Source of the DNA: Muribaculaceae bacterium Isolate-013 (NCI)
GTDB taxonomy: Bacteria; Bacteroidota; Bacteroidia; Bacteroidales; Muribaculaceae
NCBI GenBank assembly: GCA_004102785.1
Contig: SCEJ01000027.1
Coordinates: 1-41,773, forward strand
Length of the DNA stretch: 41,773 nt
Direction: 5' to 3'
Below the pieces are notes generated by a model that worked only from the letters and a program-made list of their open reading frames with translations, ran no database searches and was not told the DNA's origin. Position numbers and translations under genes: made by a program. Positions 10,631 to 24,884 of this stretch are shown here, in pieces. Position 1 is the stretch's first letter, and the number at the start of each line of letters is the position of its first letter.

Positions 10631-12769
10631 TCAGAGGGAGAGGCGGAGGGTGGCTGTGGAGCCGGGGGTGGTGGCGCGGATGATGTAGAGGCCGGAGGGT
10701 AGGGAGGAGAGGGAGGCATGGGTGCCGCGGCCGCAAAGGAGGGAGATGCCGGCGGTGTTGAAGAGGGTCCAGTCGGCTTCGGCGCTGAACTCTGCCCGGG
10801 AGTCAGGGCGCAGTGTGATGGTGAGCGTGGCGGCTGTGGGGGTGTCGGCGGAGGTGTACTGGTAGGGATATTCGTAGGTGGTGGTCATCGGGCAGTTGGC
10901 TACCTTGTAGCTTACGGTGACGTTGTAGCGGCCGTCGGTCACCACGGCGTCGGGGGCGGTCCAGCGTCCGCCTCTGTAAACGGCATCGACCCCCTCGATG
11001 TTTACTCCCGTGATTTTCACGTCGGGCATGAGCGAGGTCACTTCCACGGCTTTCTCGGCGGGGAAGGTATTGTAGGTGTACATCTCGTAAACGGGGTTGG
11101 AGGTGAGCGGTGCGTAGATTTCGCCGGCGCGGCCGGGGGCGCATACCTGTTTCCATCCCTTGCCGAGTCTCATGCCGGGCGAGAGCATCGACATGTAGAG
11201 GCTCACGCGGTTGCCTTCAATGTCGTCCTGTGCGTCAAGGCGCCGTATGGCGGGGTTGTTTACCACAATCATGGGGTTGTCGGCGATGAGGTCGACTTCG
11301 GTATAGCTTGTGAGCTGGCGTGTGTTTACGGGGAAGTACAGGCGCGAGAGCCGGTCGCATCCGAGAAAGGAGGAATAGTAGTACCATTCCACGCCGTTGA
11401 GCGCCACTGCCGGCAGGCCGGAGTTGCGGAAGGCGTCGATTCCTATATCCTCGGTGGTTTCCTTGAGATTTATCTTCTCGAGGTTGTGGCAGTCCATGAA
11501 GCATCCCTGCGGTATGCGCGTGATGGCCGACGGCCAGTGCATCTGCCGGAGTCCCGAGCCGGCGAACTGGTATCCGCCGCTGTCGAATTCCTGAATCGTG
11601 CCGAAGAGAAATGATTCCAGCGAGGAGCATCCGGCGAAGGCGCGCCTGTGGAGAAAGGGGATTTTCATCTTCGAGGTCATTGGGAAGGAGGTGAGGCTTG
11701 CGCAGTCCTCGAAGGCGCTGTGACCGATTACGATGGTTTTCAGACCGTCGGGCAGGGTGATGCTTTCCAGCGAGGTGCAACCGGCGAAGGCGCAGTAGCT
11801 GATGTCGAGAGTGCTGCCGGCGTCCATCCCCAGGTCAATGTGTTTCAGGGAGGAGCACCACTGGAAACAGGAGGCCCCGATGTTTTTGGGGGCTGTGGGG
11901 GCTGTGACGGTCTCCACGTCGGAGTTCATGTATGTGCTGGTCGAGGTGTAGTATTGAATCCCTTCGGGTATTATTATATTTTTCACCGAGGCGTTGCAGA
12001 ATGCGCCGGAGGATATGCTGCGGGTGTCGGCCGGCAAGGTGTAGGTGTCGAGCGCCACTCCGGGGCAGATTGCTTCGAGATTCTTTCCCCACCATATTGT
12101 GCCGTTGTCGCCCTCATGGTAATATTTTGCCGCCGAGCAGTCTACGCTCTCGATACTTTTGTTGCCGAGCTGCCAGCAGGTGGACAGGGTGTGCTCGCCG
12201 GAGATGTATATTTTTTTTAGATGAGTGTTCGCGGCGAATGCGCCGATATCGATGTTCTCCACATCGGCGGGAACGGCGAATGTGGGGCTTTCGGCCGCCG
12301 AGGGGTAGCGGAACAGGCTCCAGCGGTCTTCATCCTGAACCTTTGCCTCATAGAGCAGGTTGCCGGAGTTTCGGAAATGGGTGGAGCCGGGCGCCACTGT
12401 GTAGCGTGCTATGTTGGGGCATCCGAGAAATTCGTACTGGCCGATGAAGCGGAGTGTGGCCGGGAGCGATACTGATGTAATTCCCTCGAAGTTGCCGATT
12501 ACGGGTTTGTCGTAGGTGTGGCCCGAATAGCTCGACCATCCCAGGCCCACCACATCGAACTCTTCGCCGTTGTAGGTCACTTTTTCAGGAATCACCAGTT
12601 CGCCCGTTGGCTCGAACCCTTCGCGCACTCCGGAGATTACCATCTCGGTGCGGTCGTATCCCCAGAATTTCGTTTCCTCGTAAATGAAATCGCCGATTAC
12701 CACATCGGCGGCTGAGGCGGCCGCCGGCGCTATTGCCGCCGCGGCGAATGTAAGCAGATAAAGTCTCAT
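10631..12769 (-). CDS. Secreted BspA-type leucine-rich repeat protein
   Basis: The 712-residue protein has a signal peptide (MRLYLLTFAAAAIAPAAASA) and then a long set of LRR_5/BspA-like repeats with the pattern (L)xxIxLPxxLxxIxxxAFxxCxxL; GFEGITSVSLPATLRFIG and CTSLESITLPDGLKTI are typical. Such proteins are surface or secreted adhesin-like factors that often bind host or bacterial partners. The C-terminus LFNTAGISLLCGRGTHASLSSLPSGLYIIR resembles a type IX secretion sorting domain, which implies transport to the surface by T9SS. Start is the ATG at 12769; the longer frame to 12820 overlaps the promoter region. It is divergent from the HTH regulator gene. Confidence 0.8.
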   Translation of the reverse strand: MRLYLLTFAAAAIAPAAASAADVVIGDFIYEETKFWGYDRTEMVISGVREGFEPTGELVIPEKVTYNGEEFDVVGLGWSSYSGHTYDKPVIGNFEGITSVSLPATLRFIGQYEFLGCPNIARYTVAPGSTHFRNSGNLLYEAKVQDEDRWSLFRYPSAAESPTFAVPADVENIDIGAFAANTHLKKIYISGEHTLSTCWQLGNKSIESVDCSAAKYYHEGDNGTIWWGKNLEAICPGVALDTYTLPADTRSISSGAFCNASVKNIIIPEGIQYYTSTSTYMNSDVETVTAPTAPKNIGASCFQWCSSLKHIDLGMDAGSTLDISYCAFAGCTSLESITLPDGLKTIVIGHSAFEDCASLTSFPMTSKMKIPFLHRRAFAGCSSLESFLFGTIQEFDSGGYQFAGSGLRQMHWPSAITRIPQGCFMDCHNLEKINLKETTEDIGIDAFRNSGLPAVALNGVEWYYYSSFLGCDRLSRLYFPVNTRQLTSYTEVDLIADNPMIVVNNPAIRRLDAQDDIEGNRVSLYMSMLSPGMRLGKGWKQVCAPGRAGEIYAPLTSNPVYEMYTYNTFPAEKAVEVTSLMPDVKITGVNIEGVDAVYRGGRWTAPDAVVTDGRYNVTVSYKVANCPMTTTYEYPYQYTSADTPTAATLTITLRPDSRAEFSAEADWTLFNTAGISLLCGRGTHASLSSLPSGLYIIRATTPGSTATLRLSL

Positions 12770-12802
12770 AGTCCGTTTGGAAGGTGTGTTGGATAATCTC
12801 TG

Positions 12803-12810
12803 CAAATTTA
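12803..12810 (-). promoter_or_regulatory. -7 box for the BspA-like gene
   Basis: The minus-strand sequence TAAATTTG fits the Bacteroidota consensus and sits 33 bp before the ATG. It faces away from the HTH-regulator promoter, and the operator-like palindrome between them could affect both genes. Confidence 0.5.
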
Positions 12811-12854
12811 GGCATGGCATCCGGTTTTGGCCCCCGATACAGGGTATATACGCG

Positions 12855-12927: not shown

Positions 12928-12939
12928 ATATGTTTTTCG

Positions 12940-12947
12940 TAATTTTG
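12940..12947 (+). promoter_or_regulatory. -7 box for the TPR/HTH regulator
   Basis: TAATTTTG matches the -7 consensus 45 bp before the ATG at 12993. The upstream ATG at 12930 lies inside the promoter and so cannot be the start. Confidence 0.55.
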
Positions 12948-12992
12948 CGCCCGGAACGTGATAAACTTTTGCTTGTGGCAGGAATAAAGACA

Positions 12993-14657
12993 ATGTTACC
13001 GGCTGTGGCCTTGGCCGCAGTGATGGCGGCGGGGTGTGCCCGCTCTCCGCGCACGGTGGCCCCTACCGGATGGCGCTCTTTCGGCGAGCCTTATGATTCG
13101 CTTACGCTGCTCCTCGAAACGGGTTTTGTCGGCGATGCCGGCGCCGACTCGCTCGGGAACATGGCCCGGCGCCTGGCTGAGGCCGCCGCTGCTCCCGGTG
13201 CTCCGGATGGGCTTGAGGGGCGGGTGCACTTCTGGCGCGGGCGTGTGGCCTCGCGCCGCGGCGATGAGGAGGGGCGGCGGAGCGAGATGGCTCTGGCTGC
13301 CGGCGGCTCGGGCGATGAGGCTGAATATCTGCGGCGTCGCATGGCGTGGCTTGAGGAGGATAAGACCGGTTTCTCCAATGTGGAGTGGTACAGGCATCTG
13401 CTCGACGAGATAGACTATTATGCCGCGCGGCGTGACTCGGTGATGCTCTACACCCGCTATGTGGAACTTACCGATCTGATGCGCGAGGCTGGTTTCCGCG
13501 ACCGCGCGGCGGCTTACCTCGCCTTGGCCGATTCATGCGGCAGGGCGATCGCCGCGCGTATCCCTTTCCCTGGGATGGATATAAACCGGGCGTGCCTCCT
13601 CTACGAGGTGGGGCTGAAGGAGGAGGCCGGGGAGGTCTTCAGACGTCTGAGCGGCAATGACGCGGCAATGGCCGACCCCTCGGTGAGCGCGCTGGTTGAC
13701 TATAATCTCTATTCGGTGTATGGCGACACATCGGCTCTGAGGCGCGCTTGCGCCACCCTGGAGAGCTCCACCGACTATTATTCACTCTATCCGATAGTGA
13801 GCGCTTCGGTGGCCGGGGAGGCTCTGCGGCGCGGCGACCGCGCCGAGGCCGCGCTTTATGCGCGGCGTGCCCGCCAGGGGGTGGAGGCGCTGGGGCAGGC
13901 CGACCACCGACTGATGGCGCTCCGTGTCATTGCCGAGGCCGCCGAGGCCTCAGACGATGCCGCGGCGGCGGCGCGTGCCTACAAGGATTATGCCCTTGCG
14001 GCCGATTCGGTGCGGCGAGTGTTCAGCGACGGCGAGGTCGTCACCCTCGAGACGCGGGCCATGATCGAGGAGGCCGACCGCGAATATGCCTTGCGCCTGG
14101 CGGCACGCCGGCGCAACCTGTGGGCGGCCGTGTGCGCCGCCGTGGCAGTGGCGGCGTGCGCGGTGTTCTATGCCCTGCGGCGGATGGCGGTGCTGCGGCG
14201 GTCGGAGCGTGAGGCCGTGATGAGGCACCGCGAGGCCGAGCGGCAGACCATGGTCATGCGCATAGCCTCCGACATCAGGGAGAATACCGCCGTGGAGGCT
14301 GTGGAGCACCTTCTGCGGCTCGAGGCCGCCGGCGCCCTCGGGCGAGCCGACTCGCGACGGCTGGTGCGTCTTCTGCGCGAGGGGAAGGAGGAGGGCACAT
14401 CGCCCGATGATTTCCGCGAACTATTCTCGCGTGTGCGTCCCGAGTTTATAGGCCGTCTGCGTGAAATTGCCCCGGCATTGAGCGACCAGGCCGTGAAACT
14501 GGCCTGCTATACTCTGCTGGGGCTTGACACCAGGGAGATCGCGGCGGCCATGAATGTGCGCCCCGAAAGCGTAAAACAGGCACGCTGGCGCCTGCGCAAG
14601 GCTCTGCGGGTGCCTGCCGGCGAGTCGCTGCATCTGTTTCTGCGCTCGCTCGGATAG
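12993..14657 (+). CDS. TPR lipoprotein regulator with C-terminal HTH
   Basis: The 554-residue protein belongs to the Bacteroidales group of TPR/transmembrane/HTH regulators. It starts with a lipoprotein-type signal (MLPAVALAAVMAAGC), has helical TPR-like repeats to about residue 370, a membrane helix near 375-395 (AAVCAAVAVAACAVFYALRR), and a C-terminal HTH of LuxR type: KLACYTLLGLDTREIAAAMNVRPESV. It is probably membrane-anchored with the sensor in the periplasm and the HTH in the cytoplasm, though a lipobox plus an internal TM is unusual. It lies next to the RiPP-type locus, which it may control; this is inferred from position only. A second protein of the same layout is at 21667-23355. Confidence 0.7.
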   Translation: MLPAVALAAVMAAGCARSPRTVAPTGWRSFGEPYDSLTLLLETGFVGDAGADSLGNMARRLAEAAAAPGAPDGLEGRVHFWRGRVASRRGDEEGRRSEMALAAGGSGDEAEYLRRRMAWLEEDKTGFSNVEWYRHLLDEIDYYAARRDSVMLYTRYVELTDLMREAGFRDRAAAYLALADSCGRAIAARIPFPGMDINRACLLYEVGLKEEAGEVFRRLSGNDAAMADPSVSALVDYNLYSVYGDTSALRRACATLESSTDYYSLYPIVSASVAGEALRRGDRAEAALYARRARQGVEALGQADHRLMALRVIAEAAEASDDAAAAARAYKDYALAADSVRRVFSDGEVVTLETRAMIEEADREYALRLAARRRNLWAAVCAAVAVAACAVFYALRRMAVLRRSEREAVMRHREAERQTMVMRIASDIRENTAVEAVEHLLRLEAAGALGRADSRRLVRLLREGKEEGTSPDDFRELFSRVRPEFIGRLREIAPALSDQAVKLACYTLLGLDTREIAAAMNVRPESVKQARWRLRKALRVPAGESLHLFLRSLG

Positions 14658-14659
14658 GT

Positions 14660-14857
14660 TCAGAATCCCAGCAGGTGGCGCATAATCGACTGCGACGGCT
14701 CCGGAGGGTAGGGGAGCGCCGAGGCCAGGATTGCCAGCAGGAGTATGCTTGCCGGCACCGCCACCGATGCCACCGTCAGCGCGCGCGGCAGCGGACCGGA
14801 GAGTCGTCCGAGTTTTGGCGAGGGGTCGCTGTCGTGAGTGTCGCGGGGTGTTGTCAT
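14660..14857 (-). CDS. Small single-helix membrane protein
   Basis: This is a 65-residue protein with one strong transmembrane segment near residues 28-48 (TVASVAVPASILLLAILASAL) and a charged, Pro-rich N-terminus. Its ATG at 14857 overlaps the stop of the ABC exporter by 4 bp, so translation is probably coupled. I do not recognise a family. It could be a remnant of an HlyD-type adaptor, an immunity protein or an exporter subunit. The convergent regulator gene ends 2 bp away. Confidence 0.5.
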   Translation of the reverse strand: MTTPRDTHDSDPSPKLGRLSGPLPRALTVASVAVPASILLLAILASALPYPPEPSQSIMRHLLGF

Positions 14858-17067
14858 GAGCCGAGTTCAAGCTGGTTTTTCACAAGATTGTAGTATAGTC
14901 CGCGCAGAGCCGTCAGTGATTCATGGCTGCCGGTCTCGGCCACGCGGCCACCGTCGAGCACGATGATATTGTCGGCGTGGCGCACGGTGGAGAGGCGGTG
15001 CGCCACTACCACCACTGTGCGCCCGCGGTAGAATCCGGCTAGATTCTCCACGATGGCGCGCTCGTTGGCGGCGTCGAGCGAGTTTGTGGCTTCGTCGAGG
15101 AAGATGAAGTCGGGGTCGCGGTAGACGGCGCGGGCTATTAGTATGCGCTGGCGCTGCCCCTGGCTTATGCCGAGGCCGTCGGGGCCGATTACGGTGTCGT
15201 AGCGCAGCGGCAGCGACTCTATCCACTCCCTGACATTTGCAGTGGCCGCGGCCCGACGCATACGTTCGCAGTCAATTTCCGAATCATCCACCGCAATGTT
15301 GCGGGCTATGCTTTCAGAGAAAATCACGCCGTCCTGCATCACGGCGCCGCAGTGCGAGCGCCACCACCGCATGGAGTAGGCATTCAGTGGCGCCCCGGCC
15401 ACCTCGATTTCGCCTTTTTCGGGAGGATAGTATCCCAGCATGAGTTTTATCAGGGTGGTTTTGCCCGAGCCGGATGCCCCCACTATGGCAGTGGTTTTCC
15501 CTTCCGGAACGGTAAGGCTTATGTTGTCGAGAACAAGGGCCGGGTTGTGGCGGTCGTAGCGGAATTTCAGGCCGGAAACAACGATTGATTTATCGCCCGG
15601 AAATGTGGTCAGCAGAGAGTCGGATACGTTCTCCTCGTTCGGGCCGCAGTGCACCTCGTTGATGCGTTCAAGCGATATTTTTACATCCTGGAGAGTGTAG
15701 ATGAAACTCATTATCCGCGACACCGGCGAATTGAGCTGACCCACTATATACTGGATGGCCAGCATGGCGCCGAGTGTTATCGAGCCGTTGATCACGCAGG
15801 TGGCGGCCAGCACGGTGATAACGATATTTTTCACCTCGTTGATGAATATCGAGCCGGCCTCCTGGGTCTGACGCAGGCGCAGGTTCTCCAGTTCGATTTC
15901 AAAGAGGTCGGCCTGCGAGTCCTCCCATTCCCAGCGGCGTCGGCGCTCGCATTGCTGCAGCTTTATCTCCTGCATGGAGGTGACGAAGCGGTATGTGCGG
16001 TTCTGCGCCACCGACTGCGCCTCGAACAGCCGGTAGTCCAATACTCTGCGCCGGGGCAGAAACCATGCGATCCAGCCTCCGTAAACAATGCTTCCGGCCA
16101 GGAACACCATGAAAATCCCGGTGTTATAAACAAGGAGCACAGCGCCGAAAACAACGAAGCTGAGCGCGGTGAAAACAATGTCGAGCAGTTCCTGCGTGAG
16201 AAAACTCTGCACCCGCCGGTGGTCGGCTATGCGTTGCAGCAGGTCGCCCATCAGCCGGGTGTCGAAGAAGCCCATCGGGAGCCGCAGCAGTTTGATGAAG
16301 AAATCGCGCACGAGCGCCAGGTTCACACGCATGGAGATGTGGGTCAGCAGGCGCGAGCGGATGAAGTCGGTGGCCGTGCGTCCCAGCACAATCATCAGTT
16401 CGCCCAGGAGCACGAGCCATATAAACCCGAGGTCGGACCCGGCAATGCCCACATCCACTATCCATTGGGTGAGAAAGGGCATTGTCAGTTGCAGCAGGCA
16501 CCCTACAAGTAGACCGCCCAATATCAGCCCCAGATGCCGCAGATAAGGCTTTATATAGCTGAAAAGGAAGCGTATGGAGCGGCGCGAGTGTCTCTCCTCC
16601 TCTGCCCTTGCGGCGAAATCATCGCGCGGGTCGAACATCATGGCAATCCCTTTGGCGGCATCCGTGGCGGAGGCGGCGACGGCACCGGAGGTGGCGAGCC
16701 AGTGTTTCTCCATAGCCGCAGTGCGGCAGGTGTATTTCCCTTTGCCGGGGTCGGCGATATGGAAGCGTGCACCGCGGCGGCTCACGCGGTAGAGCACCAC
16801 GAAATGGTTCTGATTCCAGTGCAGGATAGCCGGCAGTGGCTCCCGGGCGAGCTCGGCGAGAGTCATGCGGGCGGCAGCGCTGTCGAGCCCCAGGTCGTCG
16901 GCGGCATCGGCTATCCCTTTAAGCGACACCCCCTGCACGGTGGCGCCGCAGTGTGCCGCCACCGTCTCCAGGCTCACCTGCCGCCCGAGGATACGGCATA
17001 CCATCGTAAGGCATGCCACTCCGCACTGCATGGCATCGCGCTGGCGCACGAATCTGAACCGGGGCAT
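14854..17067 (-). CDS. C39 peptidase-containing ABC exporter
   Basis: The 737-residue protein is a peptidase-containing ABC transporter (PCAT), which cleaves double-glycine leaders and exports the core peptide. The N-terminal C39 protease shows Cys15 (AMQCGVACL), His88 (NQNHFVVL) and Asp106 (IADPGKG), with Gln9 as the likely oxyanion residue. A membrane domain follows. The ATPase has Walker A GASGSGKTT at about 530-538, signature GISQGQ near 633, Walker B FIFLDEAT near 655, and the H-loop His near 690. The leader VLGG in the nearby precursor peptide fits this protease. It lies 7 bp after the outer-membrane barrel gene. No HlyD-type adaptor is adjacent. Confidence 0.9.
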   Translation of the reverse strand: MPRFRFVRQRDAMQCGVACLTMVCRILGRQVSLETVAAHCGATVQGVSLKGIADAADDLGLDSAAARMTLAELAREPLPAILHWNQNHFVVLYRVSRRGARFHIADPGKGKYTCRTAAMEKHWLATSGAVAASATDAAKGIAMMFDPRDDFAARAEEERHSRRSIRFLFSYIKPYLRHLGLILGGLLVGCLLQLTMPFLTQWIVDVGIAGSDLGFIWLVLLGELMIVLGRTATDFIRSRLLTHISMRVNLALVRDFFIKLLRLPMGFFDTRLMGDLLQRIADHRRVQSFLTQELLDIVFTALSFVVFGAVLLVYNTGIFMVFLAGSIVYGGWIAWFLPRRRVLDYRLFEAQSVAQNRTYRFVTSMQEIKLQQCERRRRWEWEDSQADLFEIELENLRLRQTQEAGSIFINEVKNIVITVLAATCVINGSITLGAMLAIQYIVGQLNSPVSRIMSFIYTLQDVKISLERINEVHCGPNEENVSDSLLTTFPGDKSIVVSGLKFRYDRHNPALVLDNISLTVPEGKTTAIVGASGSGKTTLIKLMLGYYPPEKGEIEVAGAPLNAYSMRWWRSHCGAVMQDGVIFSESIARNIAVDDSEIDCERMRRAAATANVREWIESLPLRYDTVIGPDGLGISQGQRQRILIARAVYRDPDFIFLDEATNSLDAANERAIVENLAGFYRGRTVVVVAHRLSTVRHADNIIVLDGGRVAETGSHESLTALRGLYYNLVKNQLELGS

Positions 17068-17074
17068 AGGGCGT

Positions 17075-19207
17075 TTATTTTTCGTAGTGGTTGAGGCTGC
17101 GCACCTGTTTGCCGCCGGAGAACTGGTAGTAGACTGTGAGCACAAAAGAGTTGTCGGAGCGTAATGCATTATTGTCCCAGGCCCGCCCTACCAGGGGGTC
17201 GGAGTTGAACACTGTTGTCCTTTCGCAGTTGGTGAAATGCACCGGCAGGTAATAACTGAGCTGCATACCCCATTTCGACCGGAACTCTTTGGCGATAAAC
17301 AATGCGAAGCTGTCGTAATATCCATAGTTTACATACTGTGGAGTCACTCCGCTATTGCCCCCTAAATCGTACATCAGGGCGGCAGTGATTCCTTTGGGCT
17401 GACTGAAGTATTTCAGAAACATTGAGCCGAAAGCGTATGTGCGGCGGTTGCTCGAGGCCTTGTAGCGTTGGTAATATTGCGTAAAGCCTGCCGAGCAGTT
17501 TACCTGTAAGGCGTTGAAGAAAATACGGTTGAACGATGCTGTCAGGCCCCATTCGCTCCGGCGGCTGTTGATCCAGTCGTAGCGCACAAACGGACCCTCG
17601 ATGCCGTCGGGGCGTAGCCCGTAGCCTGCAGACATGAATGTGCGCATATCTGTTGGGGCGATATTGGCCCAAAGTCTGAACGAAATTATACGGTTGATGG
17701 TTGTGTAGAGGTTCAGGCTGTGCATGAAGCCAGGTTTCAGCGCCGGATTGCCGCATTGATATTCCAGCGAGTCGGTGAACGCACCGTAGTTCTCAATCTG
17801 AAACAGACTTGGTTGCATATTGCCTGACTCGTAGTTGAATCGCAGGGATATTTTGTTCGACGGATTGAAAGCCACCTGCAGTCCGCCCCAGGGGTTGGCG
17901 TCGCGGTAAGTCTTGCCGTCGGCGCTGTTCTGATAAAGCAGAACGCCCCCTTTCAGCGACATGCTCCAGGCGGAGCCATCAGGATTGAAATAGACGTCCA
18001 GTTCCGGAAACTGGTTAATGTCGACGCTATGCGCCAGTTTTCGTTTGTCGGCCAGGGCATACTGGTTGTGCGAGTTTCGGTTGTAGTAGTATCTCGCCGA
18101 TGCCGTCCATTCGTTGTTGGCGAAGCTTCGCGAAATCTGGCCGCCGGCCCATATCTTGTCGGTGTGTATGTGGCGGTTGTCGGTCACTGCGAAACTGTTG
18201 CGTTCGGTGGTGCTGTAAGAGTCCAGGCTGTTGGAGTTGTAACTGGCGAATGCGTGAAGCCTCCAGTTGCGCACGTTGCCCCAGTAGTATGCCACGGCGT
18301 TGTGGCTTAATGAATTGTGGGTGTGGTTATTGGAGTGAAGTTCATTTATTGAGGATGTGTTGCGGTTGAAGTCGTCGACCTGCAGACGGTAGCGGGTGTC
18401 GGAGTTTGAATCGCCGAAACGGAAGAAATAAGATGCGGCGATCACGTTATTGTCGTCGATATGATAGTCAACGAAAGCATTGGCCGAGGTGTTACGGTCG
18501 ATTGAGATCGTAGCCGGGTGGTTGAAGGGGGTATGTAGAACGGTTTGCTTGATGCCGTTCAGTGGGTAATAATTCTCATAATAAGATGTTGAGCCCTGTT
18601 TGCCCCATGAATTGCCGATACTGCCACCCACATTTATCTTATCGTATGTGTAAGTGAACTGGCCGGAGACCGATTCTGAGCCTAAAGCGTTGCCGTTGCC
18701 GTTGCGGTTGCCGGTGTAGGCCGTTCCGTAGAATTCGACGTTACCATCATACCCCTGGTAATGTGGGCGCGTTTTGAGATTTATCACGGCGTCATAGCCA
18801 CGATATTTGCCTGAGGGATTATACGTTATATTGATTTTGTCGAAACGCTTCTGGTTGAGGCGTGCTATATAGTTGAAGTCGTGCTCGATGCTGTCGACCA
18901 GCACAATGATGTTGCGCGAGCCGTAGAACGAAAGCGAACGGTTGATGGAATTATACATGGCTCCGGGGATATTGCCCAGCAGCTCCCCGGTGTTGCGTGC
19001 CCCCAGGCGCATATCTTTCGTGATGGTTATCAAGTCGCCCTGCGCCGAACGTTTCACGGTCTGATGCTTCACCACAACCTCATCAAGGGCTTTGTCGGCG
19101 ATGGAATCGGCCGCCTGAGTGCTTCCATCCGGAATACCTGCGGCATATACACCTTGAATGAAACAGAGCAGCATTGCAATGAGTAGAGTAACGGTACGCA
19201 TAGGCAT
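17075..19207 (-). CDS. Outer-membrane beta-barrel protein with TonB plug
   Basis: The 710-residue protein has a signal peptide (MPMRTVTLLIAMLLCFIQGVYA), then a plug-like domain (LDEVVVKHQTVKRSAQGDL, GELLGNIPGAMYNS, then NIIVLVDSIEH), followed by a long aromatic-rich beta-barrel. It resembles the Bacteroidota 'outer membrane beta-barrel family' of TonB-dependent-like receptors without the carboxypeptidase-like N-terminal domain. The barrel ends in hydrophobic strands rather than a sorting domain. It has its own promoter and is 7 bp before the C39 exporter gene, so it is likely the outer-membrane partner in peptide export or uptake; this is inference. The sequence is visibly AT-richer than the exporter. 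Confidence 0.8.
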   Translation of the reverse strand: MPMRTVTLLIAMLLCFIQGVYAAGIPDGSTQAADSIADKALDEVVVKHQTVKRSAQGDLITITKDMRLGARNTGELLGNIPGAMYNSINRSLSFYGSRNIIVLVDSIEHDFNYIARLNQKRFDKINITYNPSGKYRGYDAVINLKTRPHYQGYDGNVEFYGTAYTGNRNGNGNALGSESVSGQFTYTYDKINVGGSIGNSWGKQGSTSYYENYYPLNGIKQTVLHTPFNHPATISIDRNTSANAFVDYHIDDNNVIAASYFFRFGDSNSDTRYRLQVDDFNRNTSSINELHSNNHTHNSLSHNAVAYYWGNVRNWRLHAFASYNSNSLDSYSTTERNSFAVTDNRHIHTDKIWAGGQISRSFANNEWTASARYYYNRNSHNQYALADKRKLAHSVDINQFPELDVYFNPDGSAWSMSLKGGVLLYQNSADGKTYRDANPWGGLQVAFNPSNKISLRFNYESGNMQPSLFQIENYGAFTDSLEYQCGNPALKPGFMHSLNLYTTINRIISFRLWANIAPTDMRTFMSAGYGLRPDGIEGPFVRYDWINSRRSEWGLTASFNRIFFNALQVNCSAGFTQYYQRYKASSNRRTYAFGSMFLKYFSQPKGITAALMYDLGGNSGVTPQYVNYGYYDSFALFIAKEFRSKWGMQLSYYLPVHFTNCERTTVFNSDPLVGRAWDNNALRSDNSFVLTVYYQFSGGKQVRSLNHYEK

Positions 19208-19300
19208 TTTAAATTAGAGTTGAAAGATGGAGTTGTTGATAGTCTGAATGGTTATTCTGCAGCATAAAGATTTTAACACATTCAAAACATTGTTCAGCCA

Positions 19301-19330
19301 CAAAGATAGTTATATTAATTGATAATGCAA
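19301..19330 (-). promoter_or_regulatory. Promoter of the barrel/exporter operon
   Basis: On the minus strand TTG (19330-19328) and TATCTTTG (19308-19301) are separated by exactly 19 bp, an ideal Bacteroidota promoter. It lies about 94 bp before the barrel start. The barrel, exporter and small membrane protein can thus be expressed independently of the precursor and maturase. Confidence 0.7.
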
Positions 19331-19385
19331 GTTTTTTTAACACATAATTTATAACGTACTTTGTGACTGAGCAATTTGGAGTAAA

Positions 19386-20645
19386 TCAGATGCTGTGTTT
19401 ATCTATTGCGCGACAGAAATTTAGCAACATTTCTTTTACGTATGGTTCATTGAAGACGCAAGAATCCAGTTTCTTAAGATGCTGCCTTTTTCCGATACAC
19501 GGACCAAAGCAAACGGGATAGTATTTACAAGTACTACAAATAGAGCCGTCGCCGGGTTTTACATCTGGAATGTCCGTGATCTGCTTTGTCCATGATATAG
19601 AACCATCTTCCTCCAAAACAGAAGTGAGATTCTTGGGATTGTCATTGTCGCATTTCGACACTTTTCCGTTTGGAAACACACAACAGAAATTCAGGAAGTC
19701 GGCATAGCATAATCCTAAAGTGCCAAAACCGGGTTTCAGACCGATTTCTCGTGCGCTGTTAAATAACGCAGATACTTTATCGTTGTCTACAAGCGTTGCG
19801 TCTTCCTGCCATACTTTGTATATCATGAAGTCGCATTTTCCCAAAGTTTCCTGAGAAAGATGACTTTTTAAATCTTTTATGATAGCCTCAGGATTTAGAT
19901 TTTTATGCGTGTAGTTGAATCGGATAGTACATTTTGCATTTCCTTTAGCAACTAATTCAATATTACGCATAGCTTTAGCGAAGGCGGATTCTTTATTTAG
20001 AATTTTTATCTTGTCATGAAAATCCTTGCATCCGTCTATTGTGATTTGATAAGAGGTGATTCCAAGCGAAATCAATTCTTTAATCCTCTTTTCATTAAGG
20101 AGAGTACTGTTAGTTGTAATGTCGGAATTGAATACTTTACCAAATTCCTTACATTTTTCAGAGGCGTACTTCGTAAGTTCAACAACAGTTTCATAACATA
20201 TCAGCGGTTCACCCCCAAACCATGAGAGGGTGAAAAAGTATATGTCGGACCTCTGTACGTTTTTATCGATAAGTTTCTTGATACGACGAACCGTTTCATC
20301 GGATATAAAGAAATTTTCGTGTTCCTGGGTACAATACCAGCACCGCAGATTACATTGGTAGGTTGGAAGAACCATGAGCCTGAATAGATTAGGCTCTTTT
20401 GTTGAGGTGTATTTTCGGGTTATGGCTTCTTGTTCCTGTTCGAGGTTGTCAGTCAGGAAATTCCCAGCATACATCTTTTCGTAAAACGTAGGGAAAGTTT
20501 CCTTGCATTCATCCTCGTTTTTAAGGAGGTATTCTACTTTGTCGGCCTTTTCTTTCTCGACTTTGAAGAATTCCTCTGAAATGCCATTCATAAAATACAC
20601 TGTATCGCCATTGTCAAGACGGTATGTATATTTGCTTAGTGCCAT
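19386..20645 (-). CDS. Radical SAM/SPASM peptide maturase
   Basis: The 419-residue protein has the radical SAM motif CNLRCWYC (Cys98, Cys102, Cys105) binding the [4Fe-4S]-SAM cluster. The C-terminus is a SPASM domain with cysteines at about 313, 321, 322, 332, 370, 373, 379, 383 and 396, including CSTCKYYPVCFGPC, binding auxiliary Fe-S clusters. Such enzymes act on ribosomal peptides, usually making thioether or carbon-carbon crosslinks. The 80-residue N-terminal extension may bind the leader. It lies downstream of the Cys-rich precursor and probably acts on it; the bond type is not predictable from sequence. The gene is AT-rich compared with the neighbours. AAGGA lies just before the ATG. 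Confidence 0.85.
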   Translation of the reverse strand: MALSKYTYRLDNGDTVYFMNGISEEFFKVEKEKADKVEYLLKNEDECKETFPTFYEKMYAGNFLTDNLEQEQEAITRKYTSTKEPNLFRLMVLPTYQCNLRCWYCTQEHENFFISDETVRRIKKLIDKNVQRSDIYFFTLSWFGGEPLICYETVVELTKYASEKCKEFGKVFNSDITTNSTLLNEKRIKELISLGITSYQITIDGCKDFHDKIKILNKESAFAKAMRNIELVAKGNAKCTIRFNYTHKNLNPEAIIKDLKSHLSQETLGKCDFMIYKVWQEDATLVDNDKVSALFNSAREIGLKPGFGTLGLCYADFLNFCCVFPNGKVSKCDNDNPKNLTSVLEEDGSISWTKQITDIPDVKPGDGSICSTCKYYPVCFGPCIGKRQHLKKLDSCVFNEPYVKEMLLNFCRAIDKHSI

Positions 20646-20661
20646 TCCTTATGAGTTTAAT

Positions 20662-20697
20662 ACTATCAGGAACAGTAATAAAACAGTTCCTGATAGT
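20662..20697 (-). promoter_or_regulatory. Perfect 12-bp hairpin between precursor and maturase
   Basis: ACTATCAGGAAC (20662-20673) and GTTCCTGATAGT (20686-20697) form a perfect 12-bp stem with a 12-nt loop that is U-rich in the transcript. It lies between the precursor stop and the maturase start. There is no U-run after the stem, so it is not a classic intrinsic terminator. It may stabilise the precursor mRNA, be a processing site, or attenuate maturase expression. Confidence 0.6.
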
Positions 20698-20728
20698 TCG
20701 TTGATATACTTCGGGTATATGTCAGATA

Positions 20729-21001
20729 TTAACAAGTTTTATTGCAATCTATCGTCTTGTGCGCAACGCATGGGCCAGGGCAGTTTGCCCCCGATGAGTT
20801 TATCGAGGAGCATGGATCTGTGGTGCCCCCGCATCCGACGTCAATGCATCCACATTTCTGTACGCAATTACCGTTATTACAGTTGTCTGTGATACACTTA
20901 TATCCAATGTTTGTGTTCATTGGCTGTGCGGAGCCGCCGAGGACTTGCAGGGATTCCATCTCTGTGATGAATTCGCCTGAGAATTTTCTCTTTTCTTTCA
21001 T
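20729..21001 (-). CDS. Cys-rich GG-leader RiPP precursor peptide
   Basis: The 90-residue peptide has a 23-residue leader ending in MESLQVLGG at residues 15-23, the double-glycine signal cleaved by C39 exporters. The 67-residue core contains 11 cysteines (36, 41, 46, 50, 52, 57, 64, 74, 78, 86, 90), ends in Cys, and is rich in Gly, Asn, Ser and Thr. It lies directly upstream of the radical SAM/SPASM maturase and in the same direction as the exporter. It is most likely a radical SAM-modified RiPP, by context a crosslinked peptide such as a thioether type. Activity, final structure and target are unknown. A simple disulfide-rich secreted peptide is the main alternative. Confidence 0.8.
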   Translation of the reverse strand: MKEKRKFSGEFITEMESLQVLGGSAQPMNTNIGYKCITDNCNNGNCVQKCGCIDVGCGGTTDPCSSINSSGANCPGPCVAHKTIDCNKTC

Positions 21002-21084
21002 AAGCAGAAAATTTGGTTAGAGAATTGGTTGATATATGGATAGGAGAGAGGGCGTGAAAGGCAGGGGGTTGTTGAGAGATTGAA

Positions 21085-21456
21085 TCAGAGGTAGAGATAG
21101 CCGGAGAAAGTTTTTCCCTGGTCAGTAACGGTGGTGATGTAGTAAGAGCCTGGGGCTTCGGGTGCGGAGACTGTGGGAGCTTCGGGGGTAGCGGTGCCGG
21201 TCCAAACCCGGTGGGTGTTTTCATCCTCCACGGTCACGTAGATGGCCGAGTACTCAAAGTTAGGCTCCAGTTCCAACTGCCCCGCATCATAATAATAATA
21301 GATGCGCTCGAGCGACGGGATGCGTTTCTTTTGCCCACTTCCAGGTTTCAATTCCCTAATGGGTGGACGCGTGTCTTCTGCAAATGCGTGGGGAAGACTA
21401 AATGTCAATCCCATTGCCATCACACAGAAAATTCGTAAATTCTTGCTTATTTCCAT
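21085..21456 (-). CDS. DUF3244-like small secreted protein
   Basis: The 123-residue protein has a signal peptide (MEISKNLRIFCVMAMGLTFS, cleavage after HAFA near 26) and one Ig-like beta domain ending in PGSYYITTVTDQGKTFSGYLYL. This matches the pattern I know for the Bacteroidales DUF3244 family, whose function is unknown. It lies 83 bp upstream of the precursor peptide, with no convincing promoter in between, and so may share its transcript. A link with peptide immunity or maturation is only positional. The -7 box is 4 bp from the ATG, so the transcript is likely leaderless. Confidence 0.55.
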   Translation of the reverse strand: MEISKNLRIFCVMAMGLTFSLPHAFAEDTRPPIRELKPGSGQKKRIPSLERIYYYYDAGQLELEPNFEYSAIYVTVEDENTHRVWTGTATPEAPTVSAPEAPGSYYITTVTDQGKTFSGYLYL

Positions 21457-21460
21457 ATCG

Positions 21461-21468
21461 CAAATTTA
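21461..21468 (-). promoter_or_regulatory. -7 box for DUF3244-like/precursor genes
   Basis: The minus-strand sequence TAAATTTG is 4 bp from the ATG at 21456, and a TTG lies 21 bp upstream of it. Transcription would start at or just inside the start codon. It probably serves the secreted protein, the precursor and perhaps the maturase. Confidence 0.5.
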
Positions 21469-21666
21469 CGACCTAAATTCTGCTAAGGCCAAATTTTGGG
21501 TTAAAAATCGTTAGGCATCCGGCTTTGTTAAGTGTCAGTATCTCAGTGTGTTGGCTGGATGGTAGTTTCAAAAATTAGGCAAATAAATCCAACAGGCTAT
21601 AAGTCAATGATTTATAAATCGATAGTGCTGATGCGATTGTATAAGAGTCTGTATTATAGATGGTTG

Positions 21667-23355
21667 TTAAAAGAAAGATAGATATTTTTCAGCAAGTTCA
21701 GGCTGATAGGCTACAATTTTGGCCTTGACTCTCTTCTTTCGTGAATACACGGTGGGCATGGTTACATCGAGAAGCAACATTATGGAATAATTGGAAAAGC
21801 CGCACACAAGGTAGAGAAACAACATATAGTCGTCCTCTTTCAAATCGGGGAAATCTTCTCTAAACCTACTGGCCATACCTTCAAAGTAAAGGTCGACCGA
21901 TTCAATAAGGCGTTTGTTGATTTCAGAACTTTCAAATGAGCTCAAAAGCCGGTCAACCTCCTCATAGATTTTCTTCCGCTCAATTTTTGTGCCTTTATGA
22001 GCGGAATATATGGCGAGTAGCGAATCGATCGTTTTGAAGCGTTCACCGAATAATTTATTTATGCTCCCACCAAGAGCACTGTTCGCTGTTTTGAGGGAAT
22101 TAGTCTCCTCAATCAGTAATTGCGCTCTGTTTATGAGTGCATTTATGGCTTTCTGATTCCTCTCTTTCCTTTTTCTCAGGATAAGCAGAAGTATGGTGAT
22201 ACCGGACAGAACGATTACGGTGCCGACTATGAGCCATAATTTTAACTTTTTCGCTTCTTTATCTTTTTTGTTCAGCTCGTTTATGTGATATTCGGTATCA
22301 GTTATGGTTAATTCCTGCAACATATTGGTGCGGAACCATTTCCAGTCGTGCTCTGCTTCTTTCTTACCTGCCAGATATGCCTGTTTGAAATCCCCTTGGC
22401 TTTCATATATATAAGATGGGACAAATCCAGCCGAGTCAGCGAGGATATGATTCTTCAGAATTGAGTCTGCTTCATCTTTATTCCCCGATCGTATGGCGGT
22501 ATAAAGATGATTATTAGCAAGTTGCAAAGTGTATTCTGAAGGGAATCGGCTCTTGAGTTCGTTAAGAAGTGAGTATGCTGAATCATTGTTGCCTAAAGTA
22601 TAATGACAGATAGACAGCAAAATAATCGATTCACTTTTAAGATTGACGTCTTCATTAATGAGTGTAGTTTGGGAGAGTATTGAGTCAAGGATGGGTATTG
22701 CTTCGCTATGACGGTAGTTGTTTATCAGGGCTCTTGCCACTTCGCACTGTCCCCATACAGTGTAATCGGGATGATTCCAGGGTTTCAGGATTTCATAGAC
22801 TTTCCGGGCATATAAAAGTTCTTCTTTGACACAAAGAACCTCACCATATAGTATTGCAAGGTCACCGTAAATCTGACTTATATAAAATGTGTCGCGGAGT
22901 TCGATACTTTCATATTCGGCTTTACGGTATTGTGCTATCGCTGCTGTTTTTTCTCCTTTGTTCTTCAATATTCTGGCGTAATAAAACCGGGCAAGCATCA
23001 TGTGATGTTTGTCGGGGAAAAGAATCTCCTTTATTATATGTGTGAAATTATTGAGAGATATTTCCCTCGGTGACGGGGAATAATAATCGAGCGCTGAAAC
23101 AATAAGCGAGTCATCGGTCAGGTCGATGTAGTTTTTGTCGAGGGCCTGGGTGAGGAGGAGGGCGTGGAGGGCGCGGGCCTCGGCAGAGTGGAGGGTGGAG
23201 TCGGGGATAGAGCGGATGATGGCCAAAGCGGAGTCGGGGCTGGTGTGCATTATGGCTTCGGCATGGCGCATGCGCTCGAGCGTGGCGTTGTCGCGGCGGC
23301 ATGAGGCGATGGAGAGTAGGAGGGCGGCGAGTATGGCGTAGGGGAGTAGCTTCAT
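21667..23355 (-). CDS. TPR lipoprotein regulator, GC-mosaic
   Basis: The 562-residue protein has the same layout as the gene at 12993-14657: lipoprotein signal (MKLLPYAILAALLLSIASC), TPR-like helices, a membrane helix near residues 365-388 (LIVGTVIVLSGITILLLILR), a coiled region and a C-terminal HTH (CGFSNYSIMLLLDVTMPTVYSRKKRVKAKI). The ATG at 23355 is used; a longer frame to 23946 adds an Arg/Pro/His-rich artefact overlapping the next gene. The first 75 or so residues are GC-rich like the genome, while the rest is AT-rich like the RiPP genes, with the change near position 23100-23145. It probably regulates the adjacent cluster, by position. Confidence 0.65.
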   Translation of the reverse strand: MKLLPYAILAALLLSIASCRRDNATLERMRHAEAIMHTSPDSALAIIRSIPDSTLHSAEARALHALLLTQALDKNYIDLTDDSLIVSALDYYSPSPREISLNNFTHIIKEILFPDKHHMMLARFYYARILKNKGEKTAAIAQYRKAEYESIELRDTFYISQIYGDLAILYGEVLCVKEELLYARKVYEILKPWNHPDYTVWGQCEVARALINNYRHSEAIPILDSILSQTTLINEDVNLKSESIILLSICHYTLGNNDSAYSLLNELKSRFPSEYTLQLANNHLYTAIRSGNKDEADSILKNHILADSAGFVPSYIYESQGDFKQAYLAGKKEAEHDWKWFRTNMLQELTITDTEYHINELNKKDKEAKKLKLWLIVGTVIVLSGITILLLILRKRKERNQKAINALINRAQLLIEETNSLKTANSALGGSINKLFGERFKTIDSLLAIYSAHKGTKIERKKIYEEVDRLLSSFESSEINKRLIESVDLYFEGMASRFREDFPDLKEDDYMLFLYLVCGFSNYSIMLLLDVTMPTVYSRKKRVKAKIVAYQPELAEKYLSFF

Positions 23356-23438: not shown

Positions 23439-24884
23439 TCAGAGAATCGGGGCGAAGAGGCGCATGAATGATTCCATGCCGCGCTCGAGCAGCGGGCGCG
23501 AATGCCAGGTGGCGGGCTGCACGCGCAGTGAGTCGGCCTGGTCGCGCAGGAAGATTTCCTTGAGGCGGCGGTTGAAGGAGCGTGAGTAGACGAGCATGTT
23601 GGCCTCGAAATTGTGCTCGAACGAGCGGAAGTCGAAGTTGCAGGATCCTACGGTGGCGAGGTCGTCGTCGATGATGATGGCTTTGGAGTGGAGCATCCCC
23701 GGCTCGTAGAGGTAGACTTTGACTCCGGCGCGGAGGCATTCGGAGATGTAGCTGAAGGAGGCCCATCGGAGCATGTCGCTGTCGGAGCGGCGGGGTAGCA
23801 TCAGGCGCACGTCGAGGCGCGCCAGGGCGCACATCTGCAGGGCGTGGAGCAGGCCCTCGGAGGGGAGGAAGTAGGGGGTCTGGAGCCATACGCATTTGCG
23901 GGCGTTGGAGATGGCTTTCTGAAAGATAAGTGTCATGTTCATCCATCGGCTGGTGGGGCCTCCGGCTATGAGCTGCATCCCCATCGGTGAGGGTATCTGC
24001 AGTGGGCGTGCCTCGACAGGTTCCTCGGGGAGGGGGTTGCCCATGAAATTCCAGTCGATGGCAAAAAGCTGCTGGAGCGATGCCACGGCGGGGCCCTGGA
24101 TGCGCAGATGCAGGTCGCGCCAGGTGGGGAAGTTACCGCCGGTGATGTATCGGTCGGCCACGTTCATGCCGCCGATGTAGCCGGTGTGGCCGTCGATCAC
24201 CACTATCTTGCGGTGGTTGCGCCAGTTGATTCGCGTGCCCAGGAAGGGGAACACCACCTTGAAGAATGGGTATGCCTCGACCCCGGCGGCCCGCATGGCC
24301 TTGAAGAAAGCGTTGCGGGCCTTGAACGAACCGACATGGTCGTAGATCACGCGCACTTTCACCCCGGCGCGGGCGCGCTCCTGGAGGGCGCGGGCAAGCG
24401 CGGTGCCGATTTTGTCATCGGCAATGATGTAGTATTCGAGATTGATGTAGGAGCGTGCCGCGCGGATGTCGGCCAGGAGCGCCTCGAATTTGTCGGTGCC
24501 GTTGTCGAACACCCGGGCGTCGCACCCCTCGTAAAGCTCGGCTCCGCAGAGCGAATAGGCCAGGTGAGCCAGTTGCGAAGCGGGGCGCGATGAGCCCAGT
24601 GTGCTTAGGCGTATGCGTCCGCGGGTGTCGGCGCCCATGCGCCGCAGCCGTCGGCGGTTGCGGCGCGATATAATGCGCTTGCTCTGAATGTTGCGGCCGA
24701 ACACGATGTAAAGCACCAGCCCCAGGCCGGGCACAACGAGCAGCACCGTGACCCATGCGAGCGATTTCACAGGGTTGCGGTTTTCCGACACCACCACCAC
24801 TACCGTTGACAGGATTACGGCGGCGTAGAGCAGGGTGACGGTCCACCACACCCAGGTGAGGTTAATGTAGTCGCTGAGGTTCAT
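23439..24884 (-). CDS. cls: Cardiolipin synthase (phospholipase D family)
   Basis: Cardiolipin synthase joins two phosphatidylglycerol molecules, or PG and PE, to form cardiolipin in the inner membrane. The 481-residue protein has two N-terminal membrane helices (the PLDc_N domain) and two HKD motifs: HRKIVVIDGHTGYIGG near residue 224 and HSKAIIIDDDLATVGSCNFD near residue 397. Both motifs keep His, Lys and Asp. It lies upstream of the regulator and downstream of a SPOR-like lipoprotein on the same strand. Nothing suggests a special role. Confidence 0.9.
   Translation of the reverse strand: MNLSDYINLTWVWWTVTLLYAAVILSTVVVVVSENRNPVKSLAWVTVLLVVPGLGLVLYIVFGRNIQSKRIISRRNRRRLRRMGADTRGRIRLSTLGSSRPASQLAHLAYSLCGAELYEGCDARVFDNGTDKFEALLADIRAARSYINLEYYIIADDKIGTALARALQERARAGVKVRVIYDHVGSFKARNAFFKAMRAAGVEAYPFFKVVFPFLGTRINWRNHRKIVVIDGHTGYIGGMNVADRYITGGNFPTWRDLHLRIQGPAVASLQQLFAIDWNFMGNPLPEEPVEARPLQIPSPMGMQLIAGGPTSRWMNMTLIFQKAISNARKCVWLQTPYFLPSEGLLHALQMCALARLDVRLMLPRRSDSDMLRWASFSYISECLRAGVKVYLYEPGMLHSKAIIIDDDLATVGSCNFDFRSFEHNFEANMLVYSRSFNRRLKEIFLRDQADSLRVQPATWHSRPLLERGMESFMRLFAPIL

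Follow-up and report, generated by a model that had tools for sequence, protein, structure and literature searches.

A radical SAM peptide cluster from a Muribaculaceae bacterium whose C39 exporter gene is followed by a putative HlyD-derived anchor

How does a peptide pass the outer membrane if the gene behind its exporter is too short to encode the adaptor that would lead it there? The question is raised by a gene cluster in a stretch of 41,773 nucleotides (hereafter the window) of Muribaculaceae bacterium Isolate-013 (NCI), contig SCEJ01000027.1 of assembly GCA_004102785.1. Six open reading frames, present as first annotated and all on the minus strand, span positions 14660-21456 and encode a secreted DUF3244-like protein, a Cys-rich precursor peptide with a Gly-Gly (GG) leader, a radical S-adenosylmethionine (SAM)/SPASM maturase, an outer-membrane barrel, a C39 peptidase-containing ATP-binding cassette (ABC) exporter and a membrane protein of 65 residues. 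The last of these was merely listed in the initial annotation and proved to be the most informative part. Here we present evidence that it belongs to a family that appears to be the N-terminus of HlyD, cytoplasmic tail plus membrane helix, with the periplasmic adaptor deleted. The locus as a whole would be a cluster for a ribosomally synthesised and post-translationally modified peptide (RiPP) with a reduced type I exporter, which sets the peptide free in the periplasm and leaves the last step to the barrel, a reading on which our belief and our doubt are evenly balanced.

The gene behind the exporter

In many loci the C39 gene is followed by a gene for a single-helix protein of 48-97 residues. 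A profile of 25 such proteins found matches in 111 of the 295 Bacteroidales genomes searched, and many of these matches were the N-termini of 430-460-residue frames, others those of 155-230-residue frames. The matching gene came after a C39 frame in all 40 neighbourhoods fetched, with a 123-residue frame in between in two of them and with the C39 gene fragmented or cut by a contig end in some. Three full-length relatives were tested and all matched HlyD_3 above the Pfam cut-off. By size the relatives fall into a series, at about 435, 228, 165 and 50-97 residues, which we call full-length, middle-size (228 and 165) and short forms; 20 full-length and 20 middle-size HlyD-type cases were hand-picked from the small-protein searches (39 from one, one from another). 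The middle-size forms were compared with a 434-column profile built from 20 full-length proteins. Of 24 such forms, 19 matched an N-terminal stretch, ending about column 66 or, in the forms of 226-228 residues, at columns 78-100, and matched again from column 293-341 onwards but not in the part between. The size series can be read as the loss of the hairpin, then of the lipoyl part and then of the whole adaptor, the order of events being our reading.

The same relationship was seen from the opposite side. Here 12,997 frames were searched with a profile made only from the N-termini of full-length HlyD proteins. Of the 11,141 frames no longer than 130 residues it matched 43 (E up to 0.01), and 42 of these stand immediately behind a C39 gene, the remaining one (in locus L055) behind a C39 gene and a barrel; among frames of 131-260 residues, 23 matches came after a C39 gene and three did not. 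That the small gene is a frameshifted HlyD was rejected, as no periplasmic remnant of HlyD was found downstream in any of the 49 loci with a short form, three of which offered less than 1.5 kb to search. A search of solved structures with the small-protein profile gave 17 chains at E 0.005-0.9. Most are photosystem II protein H, aligned around the transmembrane segment, and we take these matches as chance.

The 65-residue protein of the window leaves no room for the periplasmic lipoyl, hairpin and beta-barrel adaptor of the HlyD family. It shares with the small-protein family the position, the helix and a C-terminal PYP...SIxxHxLG tail, and the fit of these three features supports its membership; it would be a divergent member, recognised only through the family. 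The start of its gene overlaps the C39 stop by 4 bp. The N-terminal region of HlyD contacts HlyB (PMC11026475), and since the short family retains just that region of HlyD, it could keep the role of contacting the ABC protein.

The small protein could also be an immunity protein, either derived from an HlyD anchor or merely resembling one. A small membrane protein encoded next to a bacteriocin exporter often confers immunity; the copy in the window is divergent, and no other immunity gene was recognised among the cluster genes. Immunity genes, however, usually vary with the peptide, and the short and middle-size forms keep the HlyD N-terminus and their place after the C39 gene beside very different peptides, also in loci that have no maturase. 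We regard an immunity function as quite improbable.

Similar arrangements were found in other genera. Parabacteroides distasonis has a maturase, a barrel, an exporter and a 62-residue 'hypothetical protein', which the profile of full-length N-termini matches at E 1.8e-14; Prevotella nigrescens has a barrel, an exporter and a 161-residue form of the small protein; and an unannotated record of Phocaeicola massiliensis has a 763-residue frame reading as a barrel, an exporter and a 165-residue form. In Emticicia, Spirosoma and Aureibacter the exporter is accompanied by a full HlyD, with no barrel annotated nearby. Among plasmid records, 3 of the 68 matching the maturase and 7 of at least 5000 matching the exporter were opened, and in two of the opened records the exporter stands at the record end, which places the next gene outside the record. 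Full HlyD genes beside exporters of about 46% identity were not borne out, the neighbours being, by eye, other proteins.

Two further arrangements were noted in passing. Two loci (L186, L188) have middle-size HlyD forms after the C39 gene and, on the opposite strand, a frame of about 1000 residues that matches the profile of the tetratricopeptide repeat (TPR)/helix-turn-helix (HTH) regulator, and no barrel was called there. Three loci with an exporter and a full HlyD (L195, L197, L199) lie near genes of the vitamin K epoxide reductase family, which suggests disulfide-bearing peptides at these loci.

The barrel and the way across the outer membrane

We propose that the peptide of the window takes two steps to leave the cell. 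The SPASM maturase would read the conserved leader and install cross-links on the 11-Cys core, most likely Cys thioethers judging from its kinship to other enzymes. The C39 ABC protein, acting as is established for its family, would cut after the GG and move the core across the inner membrane. The 65-residue protein would supply the cytoplasmic tail and the membrane helix of HlyD, the part that would touch the ABC protein; homology to HlyD is shown for the family and is weaker for this copy. As the periplasmic hairpin is missing, a sealed tunnel to TolC is not expected, and the peptide would be set free in the periplasm, from where a dedicated plugged barrel could carry it over the outer membrane, perhaps driven by TonB. 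Speculatively, the TPR/HTH regulator and the DUF3244-like protein would probably sense periplasmic peptide or guard against it. We favour periplasmic release followed by barrel passage because a type I tunnel needs the adaptor that is lost here and because a TonB-dependent transporter is needed for the secretion of PopC (PMC6434023). That the barrel completes the passage is also consistent with what has been proposed in print for related clusters of Bacteroidetes (PMC8939145). It is conceivable, though we are more doubtful than convinced, that such a TonB-powered two-step route is widespread in Bacteroidota, with HlyD reduced to a docking anchor, the barrel replacing TolC and the size series 435/228/165/65 as the evolutionary record.

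The protein had been annotated as a TonB-plug barrel. Its barrel nature was upheld by a match to PF14905 (51 bits, cut-off 27). The Pfam Plug model has no match in the window barrel and matches 3 of 40 aligned barrels, so that the plug label comes from the reading of the sequence and from a conserved LDEVVV stretch, which by eye resembles a TonB box. A search of solved structures with the barrel profile returned nothing at E up to 0.01.

The co-occurrence of barrel and truncation was counted across loci. Maturase relatives (E up to 1e-30) are present in 64 of the 397 Muribaculaceae genomes searched and exporter relatives (E up to 1e-180) in 71 of 297. We mapped 88 loci, comprising 30 neighbourhoods out of 90 maturase matches listed, 56 out of 91 exporter matches listed (those near contig ends or already included being skipped), one public contig and the window; the loci selected by exporter are a sample that does not favour the maturase. 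A barrel was called adjacent when a PF14905-type family member ended within 700 bp upstream of the C39 gene, and the count took C39 frames of at least 420 residues. An adjacent barrel was found with 42 of 49 short forms, 9 of 21 middle-size forms and 1 of 20 full-length HlyD proteins (short against full, Fisher test 2e-10, a value that ignores kinship and includes maturase-selected loci). In the exporter-selected loci alone, the barrel accompanies 31 of 38 short forms, 1 of 5 middle-size forms and 5 of 15 C39 genes with no small-protein match.

In the tree of 113 exporters (C39 frames of at least 600 residues), those with short forms make up almost one clade, and those with middle-size and full forms interleave (for example L152 beside L186, L166 beside L188). 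The tree offers only four supported independent pairs for the association of truncation with the barrel, and the association is not significant on it. Given these few pairs and the near-single clade, the link is not established apart from descent.

The barrel might instead be an uptake receptor, through which the Cys-rich peptide, exported along another path, is re-imported as a metal carrier or a signal, or a means of self-recognition. PF14905 and the TonB-box-like stretch would suit import; until the work on Oar, import was the known function of TonB-dependent transporters (PMC6434023). The 11 Cys could bind metal, the TPR regulator could sense a re-imported peptide, and the barrel has a promoter-like site of its own. 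Some loci carry two barrels, which is compatible with export and with uptake. Where maturase and exporter are both present, however, the barrel usually lies between them, and this suits export better. An uptake function is in our view unlikely.

A second alternative keeps type I secretion in one step, with an HlyD/TolC pair from elsewhere in the genome completing the tunnel in trans and the barrel having another job. Matches to the TolC family (OEP) and to HlyD_3 do occur elsewhere in the genome, on the same five contigs, and colicin V is known to use a TolC encoded elsewhere (PMC10352776). Moreover, locus L151 has a barrel, a full HlyD and a TolC, so that barrel and tunnel are not exclusive. 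Each of the HlyD_3 matches, however, lies within 7 kb of a TolC-family match and therefore probably belongs to another pump, as judged from coordinates only. The genome contains a single C39 match, this exporter (search at E up to 0.001), as it contains a single maturase match; and the HlyD gene stands after the C39 gene in the 20 full-length cases, in the very slot that the short form fills here. We find secretion in trans distinctly unlikely.

Together with the HlyD_3 and TolC-family matches elsewhere in the genome, a number of observations weigh against an HlyD-derived anchor and a barrel that takes over from it. The window protein is a weak member of its family: it was found at E 2.3e-4 by a small-protein profile built without it and was missed by the profile of full-length HlyD N-termini. 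Five of the 24 middle-size forms matched at the N-terminus alone; a 169-residue protein of Rhizosphaericola matched the full-length N-terminus profile weakly (E 0.0014) and a 47-residue protein of Flammeovirga did not match it. The lack of significance on the exporter tree belongs here as well. Truncation occurs without an adjacent barrel in 12 of 21 middle-size and 7 of 49 short forms, and among 26 C39 genes without a matching small protein 14 have the barrel. The full set of maturase, barrel, small protein, DUF3244-like gene and regulator accompanies the C39 gene in only 10 of the 57 exporter-selected cases. Lastly, the barrel structure, predicted with only one relative, has a predicted local distance difference test (pLDDT) score of 30 and was not used, so that the proposed role of the barrel has no structural support.

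Peptide, maturase and layout of the cluster

The precursor has the annotated length of 90 residues, with VLGG at residues 20-23 and 11 Cys, all after the GG. The comparison with precursor families suggested in the initial annotation yielded no NCBIfam match at E up to 1, the GG-Bacteroidales precursor family included. Peptides were called by a rule: an ATG frame of 45-135 residues, lying within 1.5 kb and not mostly inside a larger gene, and containing around residues 13-61 a G/A-G/A/S pair preceded by no more than one Cys and followed by four or more. On the same strand, 51 of 66 maturase genes have such a peptide beside them; the opposite strand gave 5 of 66 and a set of control genes 3 of 81, and the association of peptide and maturase is far above chance. 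A stricter GG pattern gave 23 of 66; the looser rule was adopted after those peptides had been seen and was applied equally to both controls. Fifteen maturases had no peptide by the looser rule; for three of them the contig ends no more than 200 bp away, and for at least two (L034, L038) a peptide is present but farther off than 1.5 kb. The case that was set beforehand as refuting, a peptide without the maturase, was not seen, no systematic search for such loci having been made. Across eleven precursors the average identity is 51% over the final 17 residues of the leader, a value raised by the choice of precursors with the leader type of the window, and 34% over the cores (28% without the Cys columns).

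The maturase was confirmed as a radical SAM/SPASM enzyme. Radical_SAM of Pfam scores 65 bits (cut-off 29.5), and the CX3CX2C motif and five Cys of the SPASM region (C98, C102, C105, C313, C332, C370, C373, C379 in all) are invariant in a 40-row alignment. In NCBIfam it comes nearest to maturases of Cys-rich peptides and of ranthipeptides, with scores that all stay far under the cut-offs (at best 111 bits against 525); it scores below the curated cut-offs of TIGR04463, CefB, PapB, SCIFF and Clo7bot. The best match among solved structures is 5wgg, which we take to be CteB. Judging from these matches, Cys thioether cross-links would be the likeliest chemistry.

Several relatives show variations on the pair. 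Two maturases per locus, in tandem sets, were found in L031 (9589-13053), L046 and L048, and in L031 two peptide-maturase pairs in a row share a single exporter. A precursor in L051 (8779-9027) has a nearly perfect CTGNS repeat, with a Cys at every fifth residue. In L057, L060, L046 and L103, more distant maturases are accompanied by precursors of a second type, which have leaders of the kind EEDAVLLDGM and Cys-rich cores that often contain CXC. In L100 and L102 two proteins of 481-494 residues, possibly extra modifying enzymes, lie between the maturase and the C39 exporter.

The exporter was likewise as annotated, with C39 (PF03412, 100 bits), transmembrane (ABC_membrane, 97 bits) and ATPase (ABC_tran, 109 bits) domains in one chain; by eye, the catalytic residues are Cys49 (counted along the 771-residue frame), a His and an Asp. 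With the start listed at 17169, the gene would share 95 bp with the barrel gene. M35 (17067) is the likelier start, given that the C39 domain begins only at residue 38 of the frame and that the alignments of most relatives set in at about residue 27-43, those of a few at 5-24.

The family order that recurs in Muribaculaceae is regulator, DUF3244-like protein, peptide, maturase, barrel, exporter and small protein, and many of the mapped loci miss parts of it. These recurring neighbourhoods support the annotated idea that peptide, maturase and exporter would act together in a RiPP cluster. Among the 57 exporter-selected C39 genes (frames of at least 600 residues), a maturase lies within 9 kb upstream of 33 and an adjacent barrel accompanies 37; the two coincide at 23, and at 20 of these a short small protein is present as well. 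Fourteen have the barrel and no maturase in the upstream stretch fetched, and 11 of these 14 have the small protein, from which it appears that barrel, exporter and small protein form a module of their own. No GG Cys-rich peptide was seen in the maturase-less loci inspected (e.g. L074, L082, L083, L084).

The regulator upstream, outside the span first annotated, goes with the set: a TPR/HTH regulator is the next gene upstream, on either strand, of 35 of 39 DUF3244-like frames, and a maturase lies within 1.8 kb downstream of 31 of the 39. Read from its first Met, the regulator of the window has a lipobox or signal, TPR repeats that are probably periplasmic, one transmembrane helix and a C-terminal HTH-like region. 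The annotation of the next protein as DUF3244-like draws on its family, of which Pfam DUF3244 matches 6 of 33 aligned members; the window protein has no Pfam match of its own. A partial model of it (mean pLDDT 65) is closest to the DUF3244 structure 3d33 (E 2.1e-3). The family profile matches solved structures of DUF3244 proteins at E 2e-4 to 8e-3, and designed 'Pizza' proteins score as well or better.

The recurring unit of regulator and DUF3244-like protein would agree with peptide signalling in place of a toxin, the product staying in or returning to the periplasm and being read by the TPR/HTH regulator; signalling and pheromone binding by TPR proteins have been raised for such clusters (PMC10352776). 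The variable core, however, fits antagonism at least as well, and no target operon for signalling is known. We consider this reading rather unlikely.

Promoter-like sites of the Bacteroidota type were scanned with what we take to be the consensus. The 41.8 kb of the window contain the TTTG form twice and the TTG form four times, as against 0.16 and 0.89 expected after mononucleotide block shuffling. Two of the four stand directly upstream of the DUF3244-like gene and of the barrel (Table 1). The 84 nt from the precursor stop to the first base of the maturase have a folding energy of -22.3 kcal/mol, equalled by 1 of 200 shuffles (z -4.2), and the stem-loop is a possible attenuator that would give precursor in excess over enzyme. 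The sites and the stem-loop together suggest two transcription units, one of peptide and maturase and one of barrel, exporter and small protein.

Table 1. Positions of the cluster features in the window and the basis of each assignment
Feature	Position	Strand	Basis
Regulator, membrane one-component type	21667..23355	-	TPR and DUF6377 matches below cut-off; neighbourhood; topology read from sequence
Promoter-like site, Bacteroidota type, TTTG-N21-TAAATTTG, before DUF3244-like gene	21461..21493	-	Pattern scan; consensus presumed
DUF3244-like secreted protein, probable Ig fold, ~123 residues	21085..21456	-	Family matches, partial model
Precursor peptide, 90 residues, GG leader, 11-Cys core	20729..21001	-	Sequence, neighbourhood counts
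Stem-loop between precursor and maturase, 12-bp stem	20662..20697	-	Folding compared with shuffles
Radical SAM/SPASM peptide maturase, 419 residues	19386..20645	-	Pfam, NCBIfam, alignment
Second promoter-like site, Bacteroidota type, TTG-N19-TATCTTTG, before barrel	19301..19330	-	Pattern scan; consensus presumed
Outer-membrane beta-barrel PF14905, N-terminal plug-like region, TonB-box-like LDEVVV (residues 41-46)	17075..19207	-	Pfam; TonB box by eye
C39 peptidase-containing ABC exporter	14854..17067 (open frame to 17169)	-	Pfam domains
Putative micro-HlyD, 65-residue membrane protein, divergent family member	14660..14857	-	Family profiles, gene position

Around the cluster, a second regulator of TPR/transmembrane/HTH type (12930-14657, plus strand) converges on it, its BT3442-family match being weak and far below the cut-off. 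A 729-residue protein at 10631-12820 (minus strand) looks by eye like a leucine-rich-repeat (BspA-like) surface protein, and a 481-residue protein at 23439-24884 (minus strand) like a phospholipase D or cardiolipin synthase.

Comparison with known systems

Clusters of this kind, and the idea of export through a barrel, are already known from Bacteroidales and Bacteroidetes (PMC10352776, PMC8939145). What is new here is the putative HlyD-derived anchor as the overlooked last gene of the cluster; apart from the discussions in these two papers, the literature searched, which included few subscription journals, describes neither a truncated HlyD anchor nor this layout. If our proposal is true, a type I secretion system can be turned into an export path of two steps. 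The gene of 50-230 residues, a 'hypothetical protein' in the two annotated Bacteroidales records where we recognised it, would then be a marker for finding such clusters.

Like colicin V and haemolysin secretion, the window cluster has a C39-type ABC exporter, and the small-protein family has the N-terminus and the gene position of HlyD; unlike them, the cluster lacks the periplasmic part of HlyD and contains no TolC. The maturase shares with PapB, CefB, TIGR04463, Clo7bot, CcpM, SCIFF and CteB a radical SAM/SPASM architecture acting on Cys-rich peptides, at matches far below the cut-offs. For the barrel, a precedent is Oar of Myxococcus, a TonB-dependent transporter needed to secrete PopC outward from the periplasm (PMC6434023). 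By its description, Oar is a plugged barrel with a TonB box that transports outward, as the window barrel would in our proposal, whereas the substrate of Oar is a protease and not a peptide exported by a C39 protein. The graspetide loci of Bacteroidetes have a C39 exporter, a SPASM enzyme, HlyD and a pfam14905 barrel among their associated families, and TonB-receptor-like proteins have been proposed as exporters there (PMC8939145); they are built around an ATP-grasp enzyme, whereas none was recognised in the window cluster.

Again by description, the cluster resembles the Bacteroidales radical SAM RiPP clusters BGC1-BGC9 (PMC10352776), which combine a radical SAM enzyme (8 of 9), a GG precursor and a C39 exporter (7 of 9), as the window does, and several of which have an outer-membrane protein or a TPR gene. 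The HlyD-derived small protein and the DUF3244-like gene are not mentioned in sections 3.2 and 4 of that paper. BGC6-9 have an exporter and an outer-membrane protein with no membrane-fusion protein identified, and how export proceeds was left open there. The remnant in the slot where HlyD is expected suggests that the missing adaptor of these clusters may be present after all, reduced to its anchor.

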